A stretch of 57,156 nucleotides of DNA from Deltaproteobacteria bacterium (GTDB lineage Bacteria; Desulfobacterota; Syntrophia; Syntrophales; UBA8958). The notes below the pieces were generated by a model. That model did no database searches. It was not told where the DNA came from and saw only the letters and a program-made list of their open reading frames with translations. The position numbers were made by a program, and so were the translations under genes. Below are positions 7,322-22,618 of this stretch, piece after piece (the stretch's first letter is position 1; each line of letters opens with the position of its first letter). Location: assembly GCA_029553375.1 (NCBI GenBank), contig JAKPCH010000048.1:5001-62156 (forward strand). The letters are read 5' to 3'.

Positions 7322-8890
7322 ATGGCGATCAACATCATCAAGCGGGTCCTCGTCAGCGTCACGGACAAGACGGGCGTCCTGGAGTTCGCCAAGGGCCTGG
7401 CGGCCCACGGCGTCGAATTCCTCTCCACGGGAGGGACGGCGGCCCTCTTGCGCAAAGGCGGCCTCCCCGTCACGGAGGTATCGGATTACACGGGCTTTCC
7501 CGAGATGATGGACGGCCGCATCAAGACCCTCCACCCCCTCATCCACGGGGGTCTCCTGGCCGTGAGGGACGACGCGTCCCACATGGAAGCGGCGGCGAGG
7601 CACGGTATCAAACCCATCGACATGGTCGTCGTCAACCTCTACCGTTTCGAGGAGACGGTGAAGAGGGAGGGGGTGACCCTCGCGGAGGCCGTGGAAAACA
7701 TCGACATCGGCGGCCCCTCCATGATCAGGGCGGCGGCGAAGAACTATCGCTACGTGACCGTCGTGACGGACCCGGCGGACTACGAACCCATCCTCAGGGA
7801 GATGGGGGAAACGAAGGGCGGCGTCACGGAGGAAACCAATTTCCGTCTCGCCGTCAAGGCCTTCCAGCTGACGGCCCGCTACGACGGGGCCATCTCCAAC
7901 TACCTGGGACGCCTCACCCCCTCGGGGGAGACCCGCCCCTTCCCGTCGGCCCTCACCCTCCAGGTCACCCTGGCCCAGGAGCTGCGTTACGGCGAGAACC
8001 CCCACCAGCGGGCAGCCTTCTACCGGGAGCACGACCCCTTCCCCGCCTCCGTGGCCAACGCCCGCCAGCTCCAGGGCAAGGAGCTCTCCTACAACAACAT
8101 CATGGATTCCGACGCGGCCTGGCAGGCCGTGTCCGAGTTCGACCGCCCGGCCGTCGTCATCATGAAACACGCCAACCCCTGCGGCGCCGCTGTGTCCGAG
8201 GGGGACATCCTCACGGCCTACCGCCGGGCCCTGGAGACGGACCCCGTCTCGGCCTTCGGGGGCATCGTTGCCCTCAACCGTCCCGTGGACGCCGAAACGG
8301 CCCGGGAGCTCGCCTCCATCTTTCTCGAGGTGATCATCGCCCCCGCCTTCGAACCCGAGGCCCTCGCCATCCTCGGGGACAAGAAGAACGTCCGTCTCCT
8401 CGAGATCCCCGCCGCGTCCTCCGTCTTCCCGCAGGACTATGACCTGCGCCGCGTCGTGGGGGGGATCCTCGTCCAGGAACGGGACACGGACCGTCTCGAC
8501 ATCCGCCAAGCTGCCGTGGTCACGAAACGCGCCCCCACAAAGGAGGAGTACGAGGCGTTGGACTTCGCTTGGCGGGTCGTCAAGCACGTCAAGTCGAACG
8601 CCATCGTCTACGCCACGAAGGATCGTCTGGTGGGCGTGGGGGCAGGCCAGATGAGCCGTGTCGATTCCGTGAAGATCGGGAGGATGAAGGCCGTCCTGCC
8701 CACCGAGGGGACGGTCCTCGCCTCCGACGCCTTCTTCCCCTTCCGGGACGGCGTGGATATGGCCGCCGAGGCGGGAGTGACGGCCATCATCCAACCGGGC
8801 GGCTCCGTCAGGGACAAAGAGGTGATCGAAGCCGCCGACGAACACGGTATGGCCATGATCTTCACGGGGCGGCGGCACTTCAAACACTGA
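7322..8890 (+). CDS. purH: Bifunctional AICAR transformylase / IMP cyclohydrolase
   Basis: Catalyses the last two steps of IMP synthesis. 522 residues, normal length. The N-terminal MGS-like cyclohydrolase domain shows [21 protein letters not shown] and [15 protein letters not shown]; the C-terminal transformylase domain shows [11 protein letters not shown], the catalytic K-H pair in [22 protein letters not shown] and QPGGSVRD. It begins at the base after the purD stop, with AGGAGGAAA inside the purD tail as ribosome site. Recognition is unambiguous. Confidence 0.98.
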
Positions 8891-8943
8891 GGGGAAAGGG
8901 TCCGCGGACCGCCCCTTGTCCCCGCAGTTAAGGGTGGGATTTC

Positions 8944-9456
8944 ATGGAAAAGACACCGCAGGTTTACATCGTCATGGGCAGCGACTCGGACCTGCCCGTC
9001 ATGGGTGAGGCCGTCAAGATCCTCAAGGAATTCGGCGTGCCTTACGAACTCGTCCTCGCCTCGGCCCACCGCTCGCCGGGGCGCACGGCCCGCCTCGCCG
9101 CTGAAGCGGCGGGGAGGGGAGTCCGGGTGATCATCGCCGGGGCCGGGGCGGCCGCCCACCTGGCGGGTGTTATCGCCGCCCACACCTCCTTGCCCGTCAT
9201 CGGCGTCCCCATCGACGCCACCCCCCTCCAGGGGCTCGACGCCCTTCTCTCCACCGTCCAGATGCCGGGCGGCGTCCCCGTGGCCGCCATGGCCGTCGGG
9301 CGGCCCGGGGCGAAAAACGCCGCCCTCTTCGCCGTCAGGATCCTCGCCCTCACCGACGGGGCCCTCAAGGTCCGTCTCGAGTCCTACATCAGGGGCATGG
9401 AAGCGGAGGTGGAGAGGAAGCAGGCTGTTCTCGACCAACAAGAAAAAGTGTCGTAA
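8944..9456 (+). CDS. purE: N5-carboxyaminoimidazole ribonucleotide mutase
   Basis: 170-residue class I PurE. Diagnostic segments are VMGSDSDLPVM near the start, ASAHRSPGRT, and the glycine/alanine-rich AGAGAAAHLAGVIAAHTSLPVIGVP loop that surrounds the CAIR site; QMPGGVPVAAMAVG follows. It is the third gene of purDHE, 53 bases after purH. A partner purK is not in this window. Class I PurE needs PurK in aerobes, so that gene is expected elsewhere. Confidence 0.97.
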   Translation: MEKTPQVYIVMGSDSDLPVMGEAVKILKEFGVPYELVLASAHRSPGRTARLAAEAAGRGVRVIIAGAGAAAHLAGVIAAHTSLPVIGVPIDATPLQGLDALLSTVQMPGGVPVAAMAVGRPGAKNAALFAVRILALTDGALKVRLESYIRGMEAEVERKQAVLDQQEKVS

Positions 9457-9485: not shown

Positions 9486-9514
9486 TTGACATCCCAAGGG
9501 TGATCAAGGAAAAT
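9486..9514 (+). promoter_or_regulatory. Likely sigma-70 promoter of the envelope locus
   Basis: TTGACA at 9486-9491, a 17-base spacer and GAAAAT at 9509-9514 (four of six consensus bases). It sits in AT-rich sequence immediately after purE and about 185 bases before the SPOR-TPR-barrel start, implying a long leader. Confidence 0.5.
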
Positions 9515-9698: not shown

Positions 9699-10928
9699 AT
9701 GAGAACCTTTCGCACCCCCTTTCTTGCCGTCCTCCTTTTCTACCTTTTCCTCAAACCCGTCTTCGCCGGCGATTTGGCCTACGCCGTCCAGGTCGGAGCC
9801 TTCGTGAAGGAAAACAACGCCCTGGCCCTGACGGACAAATTGACGAAAGCAGGCTATATGGTCACCGTGCGGGAGGAACCGGCCGCCGAGGGAGAACGGA
9901 CCCTCAGGAAGGTCCTCGTCGGCCCGTACGAGACGAGATCCGAGGCCATGCGGGCGGGGCGGGATCTGAAACAGAAGGGCTTCGCCGCGGGTCACCCGAT
10001 CCTGCGGGTCCTGCCGACGCCGGAGGCGGGGGTGGAGAAACCGCGGGAGCTGGCCCAGGCCAAGACGGCCGCGACGGATGTCTCCCCGGCCGAAACGGTC
10101 AAGGCGGAGCCCAAACCTCCCGCCGCCCCTTCCCCGCCATCCACCGGTGGTATCGAGGCGGCCCTCAAGGAAGGGATCAGGCAGTACCGGGACGAAAACT
10201 ACGAGGAGGCCATCGAGGTCCTCGCCCAGGCCCGCCGCCAAGACCCGAAGAGCTCGACGGCCGCCTTCTTCCTCGGCCTCGCCTACAAGCAGACCAACGA
10301 CTTCACCCAGGCGGCGGCCCAGATGCGCGACGCCGTCACCCTGACCCCGCCGATAAGGGAGGCGGTCATCGAGCTCATCGACCTCCTCAACCAGCTGGAC
10401 CAGGTGGAGGAGGCCATGAAGTGGGTCGCCGTCGCCGAGCGGGACGGGCTGTTCCCCGCCAAGACCGCCTTCCTCAAGGGGCTCCTCCTCACCAAACAGC
10501 GGCGGTTCGATGAGGCCGTCGTCGCCTTCGAAAAGTCGAAGGAGCTGGAGAAGGGTTACACCCAGGCGGCGGACCTCCAGATCGGCCTGGCCTACCTCCA
10601 GAACCGCAAGTTCACCAAGGCCCGGGAACGTTTCCAGGCCTCCATCACCCAGGACCCCCTGTCGGACCTGGCGTCCTACGCCCGGCGCTACCAGGACATC
10701 GTGGAGGAGCAGAGCTTTCTCCAGCGGCCCCTGAGGATCACCTTGGGCGTCAGCGGCCAGTACGACACCAACATGCTCCAGGAACCGGCGACCTTCCCCG
10801 GTCTCCCCGACTCGGGCGAGGAGAGGACGATGCTCCTGAACTCATCCTTACCGTTTGGACTACGTCCCCATCCTCCCGGGGAACTGGCTCTTCAACGCCT
10901 CCGCGGGCGTCGTCAACAAACTTCATGA
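9699..10928 (+). CDS. SPOR-TPR protein, N-terminal part of a frameshifted outer-membrane barrel (Slam-like)
   Basis: From ATG 9699 the protein has a signal peptide ending VFA, then a SPOR-like peptidoglycan-binding domain (about residues 25-95: AYAVQVGAFVKENNA, VLVGPYETRSEA), a proline/alanine linker, and several TPR units (about 150-335, e.g. YRDENYEEAIEVLAQAR, FFLGLAYKQTNDFTQAA). From about residue 345 it enters a beta-barrel (LRITLGVSGQYDTNM). The frame then breaks near 10839-10854 and the last 25 or so residues here are out-of-frame; the barrel continues in the +1 frame as the next entry. TPR plus a roughly 295-residue barrel resembles Slam (DUF560) exporters; polysaccharide porins of PgaA/BcsC type are the alternative. 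Confidence 0.85.
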   Translation: MRTFRTPFLAVLLFYLFLKPVFAGDLAYAVQVGAFVKENNALALTDKLTKAGYMVTVREEPAAEGERTLRKVLVGPYETRSEAMRAGRDLKQKGFAAGHPILRVLPTPEAGVEKPRELAQAKTAATDVSPAETVKAEPKPPAAPSPPSTGGIEAALKEGIRQYRDENYEEAIEVLAQARRQDPKSSTAAFFLGLAYKQTNDFTQAAAQMRDAVTLTPPIREAVIELIDLLNQLDQVEEAMKWVAVAERDGLFPAKTAFLKGLLLTKQRRFDEAVVAFEKSKELEKGYTQAADLQIGLAYLQNRKFTKARERFQASITQDPLSDLASYARRYQDIVEEQSFLQRPLRITLGVSGQYDTNMLQEPATFPGLPDSGEERTMLLNSSLPFGLRPHPPGELALQRLRGRRQQTS

Positions 10929-11619
10929 GAAGAACTCCACCCGCTACGACCTCTTCGCCAACACCTTCTCCGTCGCCCCCGGTTACAACGCCGGCCGTTT
11001 CGCCTTCAACCTCCTGGGGAACTACACCCACGTCCTGAAACGGGGGGACTACGAAAACCAGGGGGGAGGATACCGCCGTTATTCGGAAAATTTCTCCGTG
11101 GGGCCTCAGGTTAGATTCCTCGCCGCCCCCAATCACATCCTCGAGGTCTTCGCGGGTTACCAGAAGAAGAACTACTTCAAGACGACGCCCCCGGGGAGTC
11201 CCCAGGAGGACATGAGCGCCGGCGGTTTCGACGGCTACCTGGGCTGGATGTGGATCTTCGCCAACGGCGGCCTTCTCAACACCCGGGCGGGGATGACGGT
11301 GGACAACGCCGACGGCCTCTACTGGAACGCCAGGAACTACAAGCTCTCCCTCAACCTCTTGCAGCCCCTCTGGCCCAACAAGGTCAATCTCCAGCTCGGG
11401 GGCGAGTACAGCCTCGTGGCCTACACGGCGGAAAACGCCAATTTCAACAGCGTCATCAGGCTCGACCAGATCTACACGGGCATCGTGGGGATCAACTGGA
11501 ACATCAACCGCCACGTCACGGCCCTCCTGCAGTACACGGGCATCGTGGCCAACTCCAACATCTTCATCTACGATTACAGCCGTTCCATCTGGTCGGCGGG
11601 TCTGGAGTTCCGTTTCTGA
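10855..11619 (+). CDS. Beta-barrel C-terminal part of the frameshifted SPOR-TPR-barrel protein
   Basis: Open frame offset by +1 from the preceding gene; it has no Shine-Dalgarno or signal peptide and only a TTG near its beginning, so it is best read as the continuation of that gene. About 254 residues of alternating aromatic/hydrophobic strands (WLFNASAGVV, FNLLGNYTHVL, HILEVFAGYQKKNYF, VNLQLGGEYSLVAY) ending in ...SAGLEFRF, with the terminal phenylalanine that BAM-inserted outer-membrane proteins usually have. The joined barrel would be about 295 residues, matching a 14-strand DUF560/Slam barrel. Real mutation or sequence error cannot be told apart here. Confidence 0.8.
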   Translation: MDYVPILPGNWLFNASAGVVNKLHEKNSTRYDLFANTFSVAPGYNAGRFAFNLLGNYTHVLKRGDYENQGGGYRRYSENFSVGPQVRFLAAPNHILEVFAGYQKKNYFKTTPPGSPQEDMSAGGFDGYLGWMWIFANGGLLNTRAGMTVDNADGLYWNARNYKLSLNLLQPLWPNKVNLQLGGEYSLVAYTAENANFNSVIRLDQIYTGIVGINWNINRHVTALLQYTGIVANSNIFIYDYSRSIWSAGLEFRF

Positions 11620-11653
11620 CGAACGGGGTGAGACAAGAAAAGGAGTGATCACC

Positions 11654-14600
11654 ATGAAGAAAAGTCGCCTTCATCTTTTCGCGTTTGCCTTCGCGATCAT
11701 CCTGGGGGTCCTCTTCTCGGCCGTCCCCGTCGCGGCGGCCCCGGTGGGCAAGGTTACGTCCCTGGAGGGGCGGATCGACATAACACCGGCGGGCGCCAAG
11801 GAGGCCGTGCCCGCGGCGGTGGGCACCACCGTGAACACCGGCGACATCATCCGGGCGAAAAGCAAATCCAAGGCCGAGGTGACCTTCACGGACGGGAACA
11901 TCCTCCGCGTCGGCGAGAACAGCCGGGTCCGCGTCACGAACTACAACCCCGAGGAGGGGCAGAAGAACTACTTCAACCTCTTCCGGGGAAAGACCCAGAC
12001 GGTGGTGAACAATCTCAAGAAGGGCTCCACCCTCGAGGTCCACACGCCGACGGCCATCTGCGGCGTCCGCGGCACCATCTTCGTGAGCATGTACATCAAC
12101 GGCCAGAGCAGTTTCGTCTTCTCCCGCGGCGCCGGTTACGGCTACAACATCAACCGGCCCGACCGGGTCGTGGAGATCCCCACGAAGGTCATGATGATCG
12201 TCCCCCGGCCCGACCGTCTCCCCCTCCTCCGCCCCGCCTCGGAAAGCGAGATCGACCAGCACCTGAAAGACACCACCCCCGCCAAGGAGGGAGAGAAGAA
12301 AGAGGAAGCGAAGGAAGAGGAAAAGAAACAGGCGGACAAGGGTGAGGCCAAGGAGGAGAAGCCGGCCAAGGAAGAGGCGAAAAAAGAGGAGAAGAAAGAA
12401 GAGGCCAAGAAGGAGGAGCCCGCCAAGACGGACCAGGGTCAGCAGGGGGCCAAGCAGGAACAGACGACCACCCCGCAGGCCACCGGCGCCGAAGGCCAGC
12501 AGCAACAACAGCAGACCGGCTCAACCACGGAAACAACGGCGACGTCTCCCGCCGCCCCTCCGCCCACGGATCCGGCCATGCTCGAGCAGCAGCTCGCCCA
12601 GCTTCAGCAGGAACAGACGACCCAGCAGCAACAACAACAAAAACAACAGGAACAGGTGATCGAACCCCAGAAGGACACGACGCCACCGACGATCACCTTT
12701 ACGTCCACGCCCCCCGCCCAGTCGGATGACGACAGCGCAACGATCGCCTACAGCGCCAACGAGAAGAGCGACTTCCAGTACCGGATCGACAACGGCCCCT
12801 GGCAGGCCGGCCCCACCTCGGCCACGGAGGGGAGCACCAAAATCGCGGATCTAACAGAGGGGGACCACACCTTCACCGTCAAGGCGGCCGACGCCCTCGG
12901 TAACACCTCGGAGAAGAGCTACAGCTGGAAGACGGACTACAGCACGGGTCCTGAGGTGACGATCACTCCCCAGTCCGCCGTCCCCGCCGGCAAGGGCGTC
13001 ACGGACGTCACGGTGAACCTCGCCAGCACAGATACCACCTACCGCTACAAGCTCGACGACGGGGCCTATCAGGAGACGACGGACGAGAAGATCACCCTGA
13101 CGGGTCTCGGTGCAGGCGACCACACCCTCAGTGTCTTCGGCAGGAACGACGCCGGCAAGAGGGGCAGGGAGACGCAGCAGGCCTTCCGCATCAACCGTTA
13201 CGACTCCTTGCCCGGTAAGATCTGGCTGTCGAACGACATCACCAGTCAAGAGGTGAAGGCCGATATCGCCGGCATCGCCGACGCCGACTGGGGGAGCTGG
13301 GCACTCCAGGCATCGGGCTCCGGCACGCCGACCTCTACCTGGAATTCCCACGCCGGCAGCAGTCACAGCGGAGATGATACTCAAACCTACTGGTTGATCC
13401 GCGCCGATGGCCAGGCCGCTGACGGAAGCATCACCGGTACCTCCACGGCGGATCTCCTCAAACTGGCCAAAGGCAGCGATGGCAAGACCCTCTGGAACGA
13501 TTCCTTCCTGGGTCGTACCAACGAACCCCAGCATGGTTCTGTTACGGGCACATACGGTAATTCCACCTGGAGTATCGAGGATAAGGGCACGGGCATCTAC
13601 ATTGAAGAGGCCCTCAAGTGGTACATCGAGACCCTGGCCAGCGAGTCGCCCGATTACTTCCGCCGGTGGAACAACACAGAGAAGAAGATGGATCGGGACC
13701 AGAACAGCAATCTCTATGGCCTTGTCGGCAGTACGGATGGTCCCTGGTCATCGCCTGCCTTCTTGGGCTTGGGTGGCTATAAGAACGACAACAACTGGCG
13801 TCTCTGGGTTGTGGATGTGGCTGGAGACGGCTCCGACGGCTCCCGTTTCCGGGGCGGCATAGGAGGAGTTTTATCCAGCGGCACCGCCACCGAGGACCGT
13901 TATCCCCTCGAGGGCCTGGGGCGGGTGATCTACATCCGTGAGGTCGATGGTAAATATATGACCGGATATCTCAACCTCGAGGACCTCGCCGGTGACGCCT
14001 ACGGAGCCATCGGCATGTGGCGTTTCACGGGCAGCCTTAAAGGTCCGGGGGACGAGGGGGAGACACAGTACAAACCCTCCGAGCTCGACGGCCATCTCGT
14101 CGAGTCCGCCCCCCTGAAGAGGACCATCGCGGCCCAAGGCGGATCACTTCAGGGCCGGGCCTGGACAAGGACGGTTCACCTGGAGGACCAGACGTGGAAG
14201 CTATACAGGAGTGAGATGGGGGGCACCTACAACGGGCCGCCTGTCGGTGTCAACACCGGAGGCATCGACATGAACAACGGGCGGGAGGTGAACTACTCCT
14301 TAGGGACGATCGACTTCCAAAAGTGGGAGGACGAGACGGGCCTGATCAAGGGCACGATGGAGAGTAAACAGCTGTCGTGGAAATACCAGGGGACCGCCAG
14401 TGGCAGCCTCATCGGCGACCGTAATGACTCCGGCGGATGGGAGGCCCTCGCCAGCGGCGTCCAAAGGTCGGAGAAACTTGCCTTCGCTTCTCTCATCGGC
14501 CAATGGGGCCAGGACGGCTCCATAAAGAGGCGGCCCCTGGTCTATTCCCGTCAGCCCATCTATACCCAGACAAAGGTGGCCGACGTGACGGCCCCCATAC

Positions 14601-17600
14601 GGATCGAGGTTTCTCCCGCCTCCGGGTATGAGAGCCATACCTGGATTGCCCCGTCGACGGGCGGCGACAAGACCCAGTACTTCCCCGTTTTCCCCAACAA
14701 CACGGGCCTGAAGACGTATGTCAAAACACCGTATCCCTCCGCCCGCTACGAAAAGGGCGACTCCTACGAGCGGATCCGTTACTTCCTCTTCCGAAAGGGG
14801 GACAACTACTTCAGCGTCAAGGCCCCCGGCGACACGGGCGGTTTTGACGTGACGGTTTACGACGCCGACAACAATAAAATCGACCAGCGCACCGTCTCCT
14901 CCCAGAGCGGCGTGTCATGGTACAACCTCTACCGTCTCGAGGTGCCTTCGGACCCGGCGGATCCGACCTCCTTGTGGTTGTATGTCGACGAGAGTGGCAA
15001 CTACACCGCCTTGGGCGACAGGCCCATCATCGATTACGAGGTCGTCACCGAAGACGGCGGCATCCAGGGGATCCTCGGGGGGACCCAGAGCCTCTTTGCG
15101 GGTGACGGCAAGGACATCCCCGTGCGCCTCATGGGTTCCTACACGGGCGGCCTCGAGTTCAACCGCACCTGGTCCCAGACCTTGGCTGCTTACGACAGTG
15201 ACAGCGCCCGCTATGTCACCTACGACCAGAACCCCGGGACCTATTTCGGCGTCCTGGGCGGCACCCTGAGGCCTGAGGCGGAAAAAACGGAGGGGGTCTT
15301 CCACGCCCTCATCATCGGCGCCGACGGCAAAGCGGGCCTCTTCCGCGGTTCCTTCGGCAAGGACGGGACGGGCGCCATCTACCCCCACCTCCTCATCCAG
15401 GAAGAGGGTCAGCCCGACAGGCGCCTCTGGGAGGCCGACGGCTCCCTCAGCCGCTACGACCTCGGCGTGGCCTCGGGGATCGACCCGGCGGACCTGACGG
15501 GGCCCTGGTTCCAGATTCAGGATGAACCGTCCGGCGACAGCTACGACTTCTGGGAGGGGGAGAACAGCTACCTCGGCCGCATCCACGCCTCCACTTGGGA
15601 TGCCTCACGGCAGATGCATGCCCACTCGGGAGGATTCCTCCTCGAGGGTCCTTCCTACCGGGACTCCATGTGGGCCCGCCAGGACTACTTTGACCTGTGG
15701 CACCTCGTAAAAGATGCGGGGGCGAACCTGGGGGTGTTCTCGTGGCGGAGCCTCGGGGCCTACACCCGGCAGAGCTCGGCCGACCGGTGGATCTTCGACG
15801 CCGAGTTCGAGGAGAGTCACAAGGGAAACAGCTCCTTCAGCGCCCATCTCTTCTCCTTCGGCACTTTCGGTGACGAGCCGAGCCTCTTGAAAGGCCGGGC
15901 CCTCGGCTACTTCGGTTCGGGCCAAGGCGGGCTGACGGCCATCGCTGCGGGTGACACCGTGGGGACCTACAACGAAGGCAGCGACGACCACTACCGCTAT
16001 GACACCTTCACGGCCGTGACGACGGGTACCTGGCTCAATACCCAAAAATACCTCGAGCTGATGGGTTCCGAGGCCGGGCGGGCGATCCTGGACGGCCTGG
16101 GCTATCCCACCCAGGAGGTCGCCCTCGACGCGGACTCCCGAGACCTGACGGGGGCGTTGGCCAGCAAGCCGGACCAGGCGGTCACGGTCAACGGCTTCCG
16201 CATCTTCTCGCCGAAAGACAACGACCTAATAAAAGTCTTTGCCTCCCAAGGCCTCACCTCGCAGGCGACCTATGCCACGGATGCCCTCTACCCCGTGACG
16301 GGCCAGAGCCCAGACTATCCCGTTTTCGGTGTCATGAGGAGTCAGTACAAGAATACGGAAGATTCACGCTGGCTTGGTTCCCTGGAAGGTTTCGGGGTGT
16401 TTAAAAAAGGTGACGGCACCATCTTCCAGGGCAATTTCAACGGCGTCGCGGCGGGCACCTACGGGACGGGCTTCTCCGGCACCGCCCAGGGCGAGGTCTT
16501 CGAATCGACCCTCCTCAGTCGCTTCGACACCCAGCTCAAATACTATCAATACGCGAGCGGCAACTGGAGTGTTGTAGAGACGGGAAAGATCGACGGTCTT
16601 ATGGGGTCATCCAACCCCACCATTTGGCGGGAGAACGGTTATTATCCTACCTCTTTGGACATCTCCATGTTCGGCGTTTGGCATGGAGGCGACAACCCCG
16701 TCCACAGGGGCCACATCTTCCGTACGGAGAGCTACCCCACCAACTACACCGACGGCACCACAACGACGACGACGGGCCACTCCTACTGGGGCTACCTGAC
16801 GGGCATTCACCAGGTCACGGACGGTACCCAGGACGGCATCGAGGCGCTCCTGACGGGGATTTTCCTGGACAAGGAGAAGAAGGTGGGCTTCGTGATGGGC
16901 CAGATCGGCGGCCCCGAGGCGTGGAGCGACCCATACGGCTGGGGTTTCGACTGGTCACGCCAGACCTTTGTGGCCTATCCCAAAGAAACGGGCACCCTCC
17001 TTACCGAGATCGCCTCCGCCACCACCGTGACGGCCCCGTCTCTCAAGGACAGCATCCTACAGACGGATTACACCTATCGCGGTGGTGTGATGGCGCCGTC
17101 CGAAGAGGGGGTCATCGGCCGCTTCTTTGACGCCAACAACCAGGTCGTCGGTGATCCCATCACCATGGCGGCCGTCGGCACGGCGACGGTGTCGACGGTA
17201 GACGACGAAAACATCAAGAACAAACTCGGGGTCTGGTCCACGGAGCTCTACGGTTACGGCGGCGGCCTCCCGACACACGACCTCTGGATCGGCATGGTTC
17301 AGACCCCCGCCTCCGACGAACCACCGACCAAGCTCACGGGGGCCAACATCTACGGCGAACCCTGGCAGAACGGCCGGGTCGCGGGCCATGTCCTGGGTCA
17401 CTGGGCGAGCCTGGAGGGTGCCTCTGGTATCACCTTCGGCAGACTCCTCGGGACCTTCGACCCGTCCAACTACACCTACCAGGCCGTCATGGCCGGGGGA
17501 TTCCTCGAGACGTCCCTCTACCTCTCCCTGGCCGTCAGCGCTGAAGGGCGACAGACCCTGAGGGACATCAACATCCCCTGCGTCCAGGTCGGCAATGTCA

Positions 17601-17977
17601 ACCTCGCCGGACAAAACGAGTCTCTGCAGGTAACGATGAATGACGTCAAGTTCTTCGCCTTCTCCACGGGCCAGACCCCCCACCTATGGGCGACGAACTC
17701 CGTCGCAGGCCAAGCCAAGGTAAGCAATCCGACAGGTGCGACCGTAGACTTGTCGGGCAACAGCGGGCAGCTTAGCGCCACCTTCACCATGAAGAACTGG
17801 GATACGAACAACAATAAGTGGCTTGGTTCCGTGACGAACGGCCAGGGCAGGATCGACACGCCTGTGATCCCCAACCCCAACCTCCAGAATCTCCGGTTCC
17901 GGGGCGCCGCGGCGGGCACGATCAACGGTAACAGCTTCAGCGGTACCGCCGCCGGCGTGGTCCACAAGGCCCAGTGA
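11654..17977 (+). CDS. Giant exported FecR-domain protein with repeated beta-rich C-terminal modules
   Basis: About 2,107 residues from ATG 11654 (AGGAG eight bases upstream; GTG 11645 is an alternative). Order: Sec signal peptide ending VAAA; FecR domain (about 35-150, GDIIRAKSKSKAEVTFTDG, LRVGENSRVRV); a Lys/Glu-rich low-complexity linker (about 205-260); a Gln/Thr-rich linker (about 260-340); two Ig-like units opening TPPTITFTSTP and PEVTITPQ; then about 1,600 residues of Trp/Gly/Tyr/Asp-rich beta modules. Two copies of WLGS...FxGxAAGT...FSGTAxG occur near residues 1570 and 2055-2107. There is no lipobox. It lies 34 bases after the barrel gene, so co-expression and export through that barrel are plausible. 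I do not recognise a characterised full-length homologue. Confidence 0.93.
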   Translation: MKKSRLHLFAFAFAIILGVLFSAVPVAAAPVGKVTSLEGRIDITPAGAKEAVPAAVGTTVNTGDIIRAKSKSKAEVTFTDGNILRVGENSRVRVTNYNPEEGQKNYFNLFRGKTQTVVNNLKKGSTLEVHTPTAICGVRGTIFVSMYINGQSSFVFSRGAGYGYNINRPDRVVEIPTKVMMIVPRPDRLPLLRPASESEIDQHLKDTTPAKEGEKKEEAKEEEKKQADKGEAKEEKPAKEEAKKEEKKEEAKKEEPAKTDQGQQGAKQEQTTTPQATGAEGQQQQQQTGSTTETTATSPAAPPPTDPAMLEQQLAQLQQEQTTQQQQQQKQQEQVIEPQKDTTPPTITFTSTPPAQSDDDSATIAYSANEKSDFQYRIDNGPWQAGPTSATEGSTKIADLTEGDHTFTVKAADALGNTSEKSYSWKTDYSTGPEVTITPQSAVPAGKGVTDVTVNLASTDTTYRYKLDDGAYQETTDEKITLTGLGAGDHTLSVFGRNDAGKRGRETQQAFRINRYDSLPGKIWLSNDITSQEVKADIAGIADADWGSWALQASGSGTPTSTWNSHAGSSHSGDDTQTYWLIRADGQAADGSITGTSTADLLKLAKGSDGKTLWNDSFLGRTNEPQHGSVTGTYGNSTWSIEDKGTGIYIEEALKWYIETLASESPDYFRRWNNTEKKMDRDQNSNLYGLVGSTDGPWSSPAFLGLGGYKNDNNWRLWVVDVAGDGSDGSRFRGGIGGVLSSGTATEDRYPLEGLGRVIYIREVDGKYMTGYLNLEDLAGDAYGAIGMWRFTGSLKGPGDEGETQYKPSELDGHLVESAPLKRTIAAQGGSLQGRAWTRTVHLEDQTWKLYRSEMGGTYNGPPVGVNTGGIDMNNGREVNYSLGTIDFQKWEDETGLIKGTMESKQLSWKYQGTASGSLIGDRNDSGGWEALASGVQRSEKLAFASLIGQWGQDGSIKRRPLVYSRQPIYTQTKVADVTAPIRIEVSPASGYESHTWIAPSTGGDKTQYFPVFPNNTGLKTYVKTPYPSARYEKGDSYERIRYFLFRKGDNYFSVKAPGDTGGFDVTVYDADNNKIDQRTVSSQSGVSWYNLYRLEVPSDPADPTSLWLYVDESGNYTALGDRPIIDYEVVTEDGGIQGILGGTQSLFAGDGKDIPVRLMGSYTGGLEFNRTWSQTLAAYDSDSARYVTYDQNPGTYFGVLGGTLRPEAEKTEGVFHALIIGADGKAGLFRGSFGKDGTGAIYPHLLIQEEGQPDRRLWEADGSLSRYDLGVASGIDPADLTGPWFQIQDEPSGDSYDFWEGENSYLGRIHASTWDASRQMHAHSGGFLLEGPSYRDSMWARQDYFDLWHLVKDAGANLGVFSWRSLGAYTRQSSADRWIFDAEFEESHKGNSSFSAHLFSFGTFGDEPSLLKGRALGYFGSGQGGLTAIAAGDTVGTYNEGSDDHYRYDTFTAVTTGTWLNTQKYLELMGSEAGRAILDGLGYPTQEVALDADSRDLTGALASKPDQAVTVNGFRIFSPKDNDLIKVFASQGLTSQATYATDALYPVTGQSPDYPVFGVMRSQYKNTEDSRWLGSLEGFGVFKKGDGTIFQGNFNGVAAGTYGTGFSGTAQGEVFESTLLSRFDTQLKYYQYASGNWSVVETGKIDGLMGSSNPTIWRENGYYPTSLDISMFGVWHGGDNPVHRGHIFRTESYPTNYTDGTTTTTTGHSYWGYLTGIHQVTDGTQDGIEALLTGIFLDKEKKVGFVMGQIGGPEAWSDPYGWGFDWSRQTFVAYPKETGTLLTEIASATTVTAPSLKDSILQTDYTYRGGVMAPSEEGVIGRFFDANNQVVGDPITMAAVGTATVSTVDDENIKNKLGVWSTELYGYGGGLPTHDLWIGMVQTPASDEPPTKLTGANIYGEPWQNGRVAGHVLGHWASLEGASGITFGRLLGTFDPSNYTYQAVMAGGFLETSLYLSLAVSAEGRQTLRDINIPCVQVGNVNLAGQNESLQVTMNDVKFFAFSTGQTPHLWATNSVAGQAKVSNPTGATVDLSGNSGQLSATFTMKNWDTNNNKWLGSVTNGQGRIDTPVIPNPNLQNLRFRGAAAGTINGNSFSGTAAGVVHKAQ

Positions 17978-18019
17978 CGAGGTGCTGGGGAAATTTTAGT
18001 TGTCACTATTATTAATAAT

Positions 18020-18062
18020 CACCCTGGCCCGCCGTCACCGACGAGGGGTCAGGGTGGTTCTA
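18020..18062 (+). terminator. Probable terminator after the giant FecR-domain gene
   Basis: CACCCTG (18020-18026) pairs with CAGGGTG (18050-18056), strengthened by CCC/GGG inside. Only a short T-rich tail (GTTCTAT) follows, so strength is uncertain. Confidence 0.5.
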
Positions 18063-18245
18063 TCGGGGATGAGAAAAAGATTAGTCACTAATCAAAGTTA
18101 AATCCTTGATATCAAAAGAAAAACGGCTTTGAGTCGCAACTATTCGTAATTATTTGCGATTTGTAAACAATCAATTTTGCTGAGTATTTTGGGGGAATAT
18201 GTCTTGATGAGGTTAATGGGATCTTGGCACCGGGAGGGGAGATAA
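18063..18245. other. AT-rich non-coding gap before the first Skp-like gene
   Basis: Markedly AT-richer than the flanking genes. It contains the small palindrome ATTAGTCACTAAT near 18081-18093 and ends with the GGGAGGGGAG Shine-Dalgarno of the next gene. It probably carries that gene's promoter, but no convincing -35/-10 pair was fixed. Confidence 0.4.
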
Positions 18246-18767
18246 ACGAATAGAGTATCAGTTTTTTTATGGATATTGATCGGGGCTGTTTTTTCCCTGA
18301 CCCCGGCCGTCGGCGGGGCGGCGGGGCCGCGGATCGGGGTGGTGGACGTCCAGCGGGTCCTCAAGGAGTCCCGGGAGGTCCAGAAGGTGCGGGACAACCT
18401 CCTCCAGGACATGAAGGCGAAGCGGGAGACCCTCGCCGCCAAGGAGAGGGAGGTAAGGAATAAGGAGGAGGAGTTCAGGAAGCTGCCCCCCAAGACCCCG
18501 GCGAAACAGCGGGCCGCCAAGGCGGACGAGCTGAAGAACGCCCTGCGGGATCTCCAGTACCTCCGTCAGGACCTCGAGGCGGAGTGGAAGAGGAAGGAGA
18601 ACGACGCCATGAGGACGATCCTGGGGGAGGTCCTCCAGCTGATCAGGAAATACGCCCGCGACGAAGGATACACGACCGTCCTGGACTCGTCGGCCGTCCT
18701 GGCCTCCGACGAGGGCGTGGACATCACCAACAGGATCATCAGGCTCTACGACGAAAGCAAGAGATGA
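18246..18767 (+). CDS. Skp/OmpH-family periplasmic chaperone, copy 1 (apparent ACG start)
   Basis: Holdase that keeps unfolded outer-membrane and exported proteins soluble in the periplasm. The mature part begins PRIGVVDVQRVLKES, the Skp/OmpH opening strand, followed by a long charged helical-hairpin arm (KVRDNLLQDMKAKRETLAAKE onward) and the closing EGVDITNRIIRLYDES. The frame opens right after a TAA (18243-18245). The first codon, ACG at 18246, has GGGAGGGGAG just upstream and gives NRVSVFLWILIGAVFSL, a proper signal peptide. The first standard start, TTG 18276, would cut that peptide in half and has no ribosome site. 173 residues from ACG. A paralogue follows 97 bases downstream. Confidence 0.88.
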   Translation, partial: TNRVSVFLWILIGAVFSLTPAVGGAAGPRIGVVDVQRVLKESREVQKVRDNLLQDMKAKRETLAAKEREVRNKEEEFRKLPPKTPAKQRAAKADELKNALRDLQYLRQDLEAEWKRKENDAMRTILGEVLQLIRKYARDEGYTTVLDSSAVLASDEGVDITNRIIRLYDESKR

Positions 18768-18864
18768 GGGGCAAACCCGACCCTTATCTCCTTGTCCCCT
18801 CCCCCTTTTTCTGCTACAAGGCAGGCGTCCCCAGAAAAAATACCCCCGGGAGGTAGTGAAGATC

Positions 18865-19407
18865 ATGCCCAGGCTCTCAGGTATCCTTTTCATCGCGGCC
18901 CTTTTCTCCCTTGTCCTCACCTCGGCCCACGCCGCCCCCCCCAGATCGGCGGCGGCGACGACGGGTGTCAAGATCGGGATCGTGGACATGCAGAAGGTCC
19001 TGCGGGAGGCCAAGGCGGCCAAGGCGGCCCGGGCGGCCTTCGAGAAGGAACTGGAGGCGAAGAGGATCCAGATCGCCAACAAGGAGAAAGAGGCCCGGGA
19101 CCTCGAGGGGGAGATCAACCGCCTCGACCCCACCGCCTCCCTCGAGGTCCGTCGTCAGAAGGCCGACAAGCTGAAGCACGTCATGAGGGAGCTCAACAAC
19201 CTCAAACAGGACACGGAAGAGGAATTGAAACGCAAGGAGATGGAGATGGCCCAGAAGATCCTCGGTGAGATCATGGCCGTGGTGCGCAACTACGCCAGGA
19301 ACGAGCGCCTCGTCGCCGTCTTCGAGCGCGGCGCCGTCATGGTCGCCGACGAGGCCATCGACATCACCGACCGGATCCTCAAGATCTACGACGGCCAGAA
19401 ACGCTGA
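18865..19407 (+). CDS. Skp/OmpH-family periplasmic chaperone, copy 2
   Basis: 180 residues from ATG 18865 (GGAGG eleven bases upstream; GTG 18856 is only two bases from that site). Signal peptide MPRLSGILFIAALFSLVLTSAHA, then VKIGIVDMQKVLREAKAAKAA, a long helical arm and the ending DITDRILKIYDGQKR. Same fold and ending as the preceding gene, so the two arose by duplication. bamA, lpxD and fabZ, the usual neighbours of skp, are not here; instead the pair follows a giant exported protein and its barrel, suggesting dedicated holdases. Confidence 0.92.
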   Translation: MPRLSGILFIAALFSLVLTSAHAAPPRSAAATTGVKIGIVDMQKVLREAKAAKAARAAFEKELEAKRIQIANKEKEARDLEGEINRLDPTASLEVRRQKADKLKHVMRELNNLKQDTEEELKRKEMEMAQKILGEIMAVVRNYARNERLVAVFERGAVMVADEAIDITDRILKIYDGQKR

Positions 19408-19414
19408 GGTACCC

Positions 19415-20191
19415 TCAGGGGAGCACCCGCTCCGCCTGGAGGGGGTAGACGAGGGTCTTGACCACGCCGGGGGGTTCCAGGAAGAAGACGATCATGAAGG
19501 GGACGGCGGCCCCGGCGTTCACCCGTTCGGCGTTGACGTCCGTGCCCTGGGGAACGGCCAGCTCCCGCAGGATCTGCTCCTCCGTCATGGTCTGGAGCTC
19601 TTCGTCCGAAAGAAGGTTCCCGCAGTAGGCCACCGCCTCCCTCACCCGCGTGTCCACGGCGTCGTAAAGCTCCGCCGCCACCTTGATCCTCGTGAGGGGG
19701 ACGTCCGCGGTGTTGACCGCCATCCCCTCGACGACGCGGATGGTGCCCATGACGGGGTTGTTCACGAGGCGCTGGCGGAGGTCCCTCACGACGACCGACG
19801 CCTTTTCCCCGGGAAGCTGCTTTTCACCGGAGACGGGGGTTTGGAGGGCCTTGAACCCCCTTAGGGCCTCCTCTACCAGGGGGGGGTTGAGAAAGGCCAC
19901 GGCCCCCGCGAAGAGGAACAGGGCCAGCAGTACCGCCGCCCCCACCCTCCAGGGCGAAAGACGCCTCTTAAGGGGCCCCTTCGCCTCGGGCAGGGGATCC
20001 CCGGACGGGGGAGGCCCTTCAGGGGCGGCCGGTCCTAGACCCTGCCGTCCCTCCGCCCCCGGAGGCGCCAAGGTCCGGTAGAAGACGTGGCGGCACCGAC
20101 TGCAGCGGAGCCAGATCCCCTCTCTGCCGCCTTCCACCGCCGTCACGTCGAAGCGGAACCTGGTGCCGCAGGACTCACAAGTGATGATCAT
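19415..20191 (-). CDS. Zinc-ribbon and DUF3426 membrane protein
   Basis: 258 residues. The N-terminus MIITCESCGTRFRFDV...WLRCSRCRHVFY is an MJ0042-type zinc ribbon (two CxxC pairs, residues about 5-36). A proline-rich linker follows, then a single membrane helix (VGAAVLLALFLFAGAVAF, about 86-103) and a DUF3426-type extracytoplasmic domain. Such proteins are widespread in proteobacteria, but their role is not established. Its stop faces the second Skp-like gene eight bases away, and hpt lies 24 bases upstream on the same strand, so it is probably cotranscribed with hpt. Confidence 0.85.
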   Translation of the reverse strand: MIITCESCGTRFRFDVTAVEGGREGIWLRCSRCRHVFYRTLAPPGAEGRQGLGPAAPEGPPPSGDPLPEAKGPLKRRLSPWRVGAAVLLALFLFAGAVAFLNPPLVEEALRGFKALQTPVSGEKQLPGEKASVVVRDLRQRLVNNPVMGTIRVVEGMAVNTADVPLTRIKVAAELYDAVDTRVREAVAYCGNLLSDEELQTMTEEQILRELAVPQGTDVNAERVNAGAAVPFMIVFFLEPPGVVKTLVYPLQAERVLP

Positions 20192-21633: not shown

Positions 21634-22506
21634 TCACTCGAAGACGACGGTCTTCGTCCCGTAGGGGAGGATACGGTTCTCCAGGTGGAGGCGCACCGCC
21701 CGGGCCAGGACCATCCGCTCCAGGTCCTTGCCCTTGAGCTTGATGTCCTCCACGGAATCGCGATGGCTGATCTTGATGACATCCTGGGCGATGATGGGGC
21801 CGTCGTCGAGGTTTTCCGTGACGTAATGGCTCGTGGCCCCGATGACCTTGACGCCCCGGTCGTAGGCCTGCTGGTAAGGTTTCGGGCCGACGAACGCGGG
21901 CAGGAAGGAGTGGTGGATGTTGATGATCCTGTTGGGGTAGCGGGCCACGAACCGGTCGCTGAGGATCTGCATGTACCTCGCCAGGACGATGAGATCGACG
22001 CCGTTCCTCTCGAGGAGTTCCAGCTCCCTCTCCTCCTGCTCGGCCTTGTTCTCCGGGGTGATGGGGAAACACTCGTAGCGGAGACCGAACTGGGTCACCA
22101 TGGGTTCCAGGTCGGGGTGGTTGCTGATGACGAGGGGGATCTCCGCCCGGAACTCCCCCATGCGATGGCGGAGGATGAGGTCGTAGAGGCAGTGGGGGTG
22201 ACGGGAGACGAAGATGGCCATCCTCTTCACCTCGTCGGTGAAATGGAGCTCCCAGGACATGTCGAACTGTTTCGCCACGTGCCTGAAGACCATCCCGATC
22301 TCCTCCCGGGGGATGACGAAGCCCTTCAGCTCCCACTCGATGCGCATGAAGAAGATCTTGCGGGTCATGGAGGTGTGCTGGGCCGCGTGGACGATGTTGC
22401 CGTTGTGACGGTAGATGAAGTTGGAGATGTTGTAGACGAGCCCCTTCTGATCGGGACACGACAGAAGGAGGATGGCGTTGGCTTCTTCACCCTTCGGGGA
22501 CTCCAT
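21634..22506 (-). CDS. purU: Formyltetrahydrofolate deformylase
   Basis: Hydrolyses 10-formyl-THF to THF and formate, balancing one-carbon pools. 290 residues from ATG 22506. N-terminal ACT domain (ILLLSCPDQKGLVYNISNFIYRHNG has the signature), then the formyltransferase fold with NIHHSFLPAFVGPKPY and the catalytic Asp in ENLDDGPIIAQD; NH...D triad present. An in-frame start further upstream (22572) would add 22 residues that do not resemble the family. Divergent from the 22619 gene. Formate release fits with the neighbouring purine genes. Confidence 0.95.
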   Translation of the reverse strand: MESPKGEEANAILLLSCPDQKGLVYNISNFIYRHNGNIVHAAQHTSMTRKIFFMRIEWELKGFVIPREEIGMVFRHVAKQFDMSWELHFTDEVKRMAIFVSRHPHCLYDLILRHRMGEFRAEIPLVISNHPDLEPMVTQFGLRYECFPITPENKAEQEERELELLERNGVDLIVLARYMQILSDRFVARYPNRIINIHHSFLPAFVGPKPYQQAYDRGVKVIGATSHYVTENLDDGPIIAQDVIKISHRDSVEDIKLKGKDLERMVLARAVRLHLENRILPYGTKTVVFE

Positions 22507-22618
22507 GGAACAAAAACCCCCACCAGAATAGGCGCCATATATAGAGGCAACGCCGTTGCAGGTCAAGGGCAAAGATGCTAAAGGGCTTCGAACCTATCCC
22601 GATCAAGGAGTTCGGCCC

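Follow-up and report, generated by a model that had tools for sequence, protein, structure and literature searches.

Does the cassette at 9699-19407 encode a dedicated export system for a giant surface protein? The window analysed here is the whole stretch of 57,156 nucleotides, from a bacterium of an oxygen-free habitat. The cassette within it carries, in this order, a SPOR-TPR-barrel gene, a giant FecR gene and two Skp/OmpH genes. A first, sequence-only reading had proposed a Slam-like exporter with its own cargo, chaperones and wall anchor. Our analysis indicates that the cassette is probably a divergent branch of type XI secretion (Slam, DUF560) with a FecR cargo, for which export is predicted.

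Gene content of the cassette

Flanking the cassette are purE (8944-9456) and, on the other strand, a zinc-ribbon gene (19415-20191). The following features were identified.

9486-9514, + strand: candidate sigma-70-like promoter (TTGACA-17-GAAAAT), 5' of the cassette; consensus match only
9699-11619, + strand: SPOR-TPR-barrel gene with a single frameshift near 10848; from ORFs, Pfam and intact orthologs
9780-9983, + strand: SPOR domain of the peptidoglycan-binding type; Pfam PF05036, 2.9e-12, residues 28-95
10164-10658, + strand: TPR region; Pfam TPR_2 (3.3e-16) and TPR_16, helical in the ortholog model
10731-11619, + strand: 14-strand outer-membrane barrel related to Slam/DUF560, with the frameshift inside; ortholog AF2 model and family overlap with PF04575 matches
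11654-17977, + strand: giant FecR-domain protein of 2,107 residues from ATG (GTG at 11645 possible), with a Sec signal peptide and no lipobox
11744-12295, + strand: conserved N-terminal FecR module; Pfam FecR 4.3e-11, own HMM 3.2e-83, PDB 5ix9 1.4e-5
12290-12664, + strand: low-complexity linker rich in Q, E, K and A; composition
12677-13204, + strand: Ig-like region; weak Pfam matches to Ig_J, Big_13 and PKD, kept in some relatives
15887-16495, + strand: internal copy of the C-terminal beta domain; own HMM 5.1e-30, residues 1415-1617
17354-17965, + strand: C-terminal beta domain, ending ...GAAAGT..FSGTAAG; own HMM 4.5e-72, residues 1904-2107, AF2 model
18276-18767, + strand: Skp/OmpH paralogue 1, start codon uncertain; Pfam OmpH 3.6e-26
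18856-19407, + strand: Skp/OmpH paralogue 2; Pfam OmpH 3.5e-23

The product of the first gene has a signal peptide, the SPOR domain and TPRs, and its C-terminal half is rich in beta structure. The gene's frame runs from 9699 to a stop at 10928, the same protein resumes in the frame 10849-11619, and the frameshift falls within the first barrel strands; the split SPOR, TPR and barrel protein described from the sequence is confirmed, with one frameshift. In relatives the gene is one uninterrupted ORF of about 500-560 residues that spans both halves. Nearly all of the relatives examined are intact, the exception being a distant one (L110) that is likewise split. The SPOR domain was not found in the four longest relatives tested and was seen only in the window protein; the wall anchor proposed earlier was rejected as a general part of the system.

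The giant's reading frame is open from 11645 to 17977. Its likely start is the ATG at 11654, 34 bases past the barrel stop and with AAGGAG upstream. The N-terminus has the features of a Sec signal peptide but no lipobox cysteine; cysteine occurs only at residues 139 and 1979. Both the Sec-exported FecR protein placed directly after the barrel gene and its non-lipidated nature are borne out.

The third and only other OmpH gene of the genome lies on another contig (C50), directly after an Omp85/POTRA (BamA) gene. The claim of a Skp pair away from bamA therefore holds in the window, but not as a general trait: Skp adjoins the cassette in 11 of 46 judgeable loci, about a quarter, and is absent in 35, the remaining loci ending at contig ends. 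The first Skp gene shows no clear in-frame ATG or GTG start (18230-18280), and the first candidate, a TTG at 18276, lies inside the signal peptide; a poly-T run is found just upstream, so the start site or the sequence may be in error.

Five neighbour genes were checked, encoding PurH, PurE, the zinc-ribbon protein, a phosphoribosyltransferase and a formyl transferase. The purine genes purH and purE (7322-9456) and the formyl transferase gene (21634-22572) stand on either side of the cassette, and purE/purH also adjoin several related cassettes. Purine and one-carbon genes have been reported near T11SS in a survey of these systems (PMC12282271).

Kinship of the barrel with type XI exporters

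Strand number separates type XI exporters, which have 14 strands, from PgaA, which has 16 (PMC8406197). An intact ortholog (L056) was modelled to stand in for the broken window copy, and its AF2 model (pLDDT 92) contains TPR helices and exactly 14 strands. In the Foldseek search with the whole architecture, the cellulose exporter BcsC came first, followed by OmpG, itself a 14-strand barrel, and other barrels; no Slam structure is among the 50 matches listed. At the level of sequence families, the best barrel match of the modelled ortholog is BBP2_2 (PF10082), over its last 58 residues only, and the close orthologs also match BBP2_2 over the last strands.

The DUF560 family itself (SlipAM, PF04575) gave no match to the window barrel fragment in the Pfam search, nor in its own genome. 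When 297 genomes of the phylum were scanned, SlipAM and our family model A2 matched the same genes at the same coordinates. Seven family genes with A2 E-values of 1e-155 to 1e-198 (family E<1e-150) exceed the curated SlipAM cut-off, with E-values of 9.9e-8 to 1.2e-11 (G269, G196, G208, G154, G232, G278 and G338), and the profile is covered essentially over its full length in all except G196. The barrel at L175 reaches 43.4 bits (cut-off 22, positions 2-288), SlipAM being its best barrel family, and this locus holds a complete window-type set: SlipAM barrel, FecR partner with the window-type C-terminus, and Skp. TPR_Slam (PF24575) touches 14 of 14 orthologs, with scores mostly below cut-off. 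The notion of a Slam-like barrel largely stands for the family, through the SlipAM matches of close relatives and the 14 strands of the ortholog, but not for the window fragment, which does not match DUF560.

The FecR partner

A search with the giant against 60 relatives revealed that the N- and C-terminal parts are conserved and the middle is variable, and an intact TPR-barrel ORF adjoins in most of the giant-protein loci opened. Using the barrel alignment to scan public genomes, we recovered 51 loci, mostly from Syntrophales as well as other Desulfobacterota, Nitrospirota and Geobacteraceae MAGs. A FecR protein lies 3' of the barrel in 41 of the 42 loci with room downstream in one scan, and downstream of it in 70 of 78 loci in a larger non-redundant set from Desulfobacterota and Nitrospirota, where gaps are mostly below 100 bases; with such proportions the adjacency is not due to chance. 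No FecR gene was found beside TolC in 30 control loci from relatives, whose flanks of about 1.5 kb are shorter than those of the other loci. Of the neighbourhood that the sequence-only reading wished to see surveyed, the barrel-FecR adjacency is conserved. None of the open-access papers found names FecR alongside DUF560 or T11SS.

The FecR module is the sole part of the partner that is always present. Partners range from 187 to 2,818 residues, so the giant size noted in the window (2,107 residues) holds there but not for the group. About 15 of them are short and lack the C-terminal beta domain; at L087, L089, L097, L098 and L100 the partner has only about 250-340 residues and no exported-looking domain. 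As judged from sequence, the constant unit is the barrel plus the FecR module, and the exported-looking C-terminus is optional. FecR neighbours also occur at three or four of 12 BBP2_2 barrels, and the pairing is for this reason not specific to type XI exporters. A second pairing of this kind is seen at L244 (853-3613), L245 (471-2940) and L247 (471-2907), where a BBP2_2 barrel precedes a short FecR protein whose tail is rich in Thr/Ser. The BBP2_2/EpsL barrels resemble the barrel family in their C-terminal strands, which match PF10082, and in the FecR neighbours of some members; they differ in that no TPR domain is apparent in L244 and that the family match covers the last strands only.

In the alignment of relatives, about 200 residues at the cargo C-terminus form a conserved domain, and the TAAG-like motifs of the cargo are confined to its extreme C-terminus. 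The AF2 model, made for the C-terminus only, as MAFFT misaligned the combined N and C parts, has high confidence over most of the last 200 residues. A TbpB-like barrel, suggested for this end by the sequence-only reading, was not detected: the domain matches no Pfam family, no PDB chain by sequence and none by fold among the Foldseek matches listed, and HHalign gave a probability of 0.2% between window-type and TbpB-type termini. On these four comparisons a TbpB-like C-terminus was rejected for the window cargo.

In distant SlipAM loci the partner combines FecR at one terminus with Pfam TbpB_B_D (PF01298) at the other, with scores of 35.5 bits in L170, 28.3 in L179 and 26.1 in L172 (cut-off 26); similarity of these cargoes to NCBIfam slam_lipo (2.2e-15) is below its cut-off. 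SlipAM barrels with FecR proteins that have a TbpB_B_D-like C-terminus are found at L170, L172, L179, L180, L183 and L107, three of them over the cut-off. From their domain composition, these partners are a candidate T11SS cargo type that is not named in the open-access literature found. In the barrel tree (FastTree), one change divides 32 window-type from seven TbpB-type loci, an agreement between barrel and cargo C-terminus that fits a matched exporter and export domain and that rests on one split.

At the other end of the cargo, the FecR-module profile has its best PDB match, which covers the first part of the module, in 5ix9 (E 1.4e-5), an entry labelled antifreeze protein. 5ix9 is the retention region of the RTX ice-binding adhesin MpAFP. 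NCBIfam retention_LapA matches weakly, below cut-off, in distant cargoes and is not listed for the window cargo, and the L170 cargo alone has weak matches to both 5ix9 and TbpB. The retention modules of LapA-type adhesins are periplasmic and tether the adhesin to the outer-membrane protein that exports it (PMC13090378). Taken together, this location, the likeness to 5ix9 and the occurrence of FecR beside BBP2_2 barrels suggest that the FecR module may dock at the outer-membrane barrel and retain the cargo. The system shares with LapA-type RTX adhesins and MpAFP a candidate giant, non-lipidated surface protein and a FecR module that resembles 5ix9. In contrast to them, the exporter is a TPR-barrel protein and not TolC/ABC, a Sec signal peptide heads the cargo, and there is no match to the LapG protease (PF06035) in the genome. 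LapG-controlled release was rejected on the missing protease and on the confinement of the TAAG-like motifs to the extreme C-terminus.

Proposed mechanism, alternatives and significance

On the preferred reading, a divergent type XI branch, the TPR and 14-strand barrel protein would be the exporter. The Sec signal peptide would take the FecR protein into the periplasm, where the adjacent Skp copies would keep it from folding; Slam-dependent display of TbpB needs Skp (PMC9090332). The C-terminal beta domain would guide the protein through the barrel to the surface, and the N-terminal FecR module would stay periplasmic at the exporter, keeping the non-lipidated giant on the cell. The added SPOR domain of the window exporter would tie it to peptidoglycan. 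The family relation of the exporter, its 14 strands (in the model of an ortholog), the FecR adjacency in two phyla, the lipobox-less signal peptide and the extra Skp genes are the parts of this picture read from sequence. A broader version, in which a type XI branch widespread in Desulfobacterota and Nitrospirota combines Slam export with LapA-type retention, the cargo being anchored by a periplasmic FecR module at a Slam-type barrel instead of by a lipid and a new C-terminal export domain replacing the TbpB barrel, is tentative and somewhat doubtful as a whole.

Known Slam/type XI systems (SlipAM, PF04575; Slam1-TbpB, HrpB-HrpC, NilB-NilC) have in common with the cassette a TPR plus 14-strand barrel, an adjacent cargo gene, a conserved C-terminal beta domain in the cargo and a link to Skp, and SlipAM matches occur in its close relatives. 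The branch differs in that its partner starts with a FecR module and is non-lipidated, in that the window-type C-terminus is not recognisably TbpB-like, and in its occurrence in Desulfobacterota and Nitrospirota, with its own Skp genes and, in the window, SPOR on the exporter.

Alternatively, the barrel could be an outer-membrane docking partner and not an exporter, with the FecR module bound to its periplasmic TPR side and the long C-terminal extensions either periplasmic or surface-bound by another route. The constancy of the FecR module, the partners of as few as 187 residues and the short FecR proteins beside BBP2_2 barrels all agree with such docking, which we nevertheless consider unlikely: the SlipAM link, the TbpB barrels on distant partners, the partners above 2,000 residues with a conserved extreme C-terminus, and the matching barrel and C-terminus types fit export better.

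The interruption of the barrel gene in the assembly means that the system is possibly damaged here, or that the break is a sequencing error. That the cassette is decayed, the frameshift within the first barrel strands making a pseudogene and nothing being exported in the source organism, seems quite improbable to us, as the family model A2 continues to match both halves of the barrel strongly (4.6e-105 and 5.6e-82), the reading frames of the giant and of the two Skp genes are open, and single-base errors are possible in assembled metagenome contigs.

The BcsC and PgaA porins likewise consist of TPRs plus a barrel. That the barrel is a polysaccharide porin like BcsC, PgaA or EpsL, to which the FecR protein would be an accessory, has in its favour the BcsC fold match and weak EpsL and BBP2_2 similarity, but is very improbable given 14 strands instead of the 16 of BcsC/PgaA, an EpsL score of 19 bits against a cut-off of 275, and five checked neighbours of which none is a polysaccharide-synthesis gene.

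Of the ten DUF560 clusters, nine contained no characterised protein and have unknown cargo (PMC8406197). If the cassette is a type XI branch, FecR-domain proteins would offer a concrete, conserved cargo candidate for exporters beyond the pathogens in which Slam was studied. The cargo C-terminus would be a candidate for a new export domain, and FecR retention provides a testable idea of how a non-lipidated cargo may be held on the cell.
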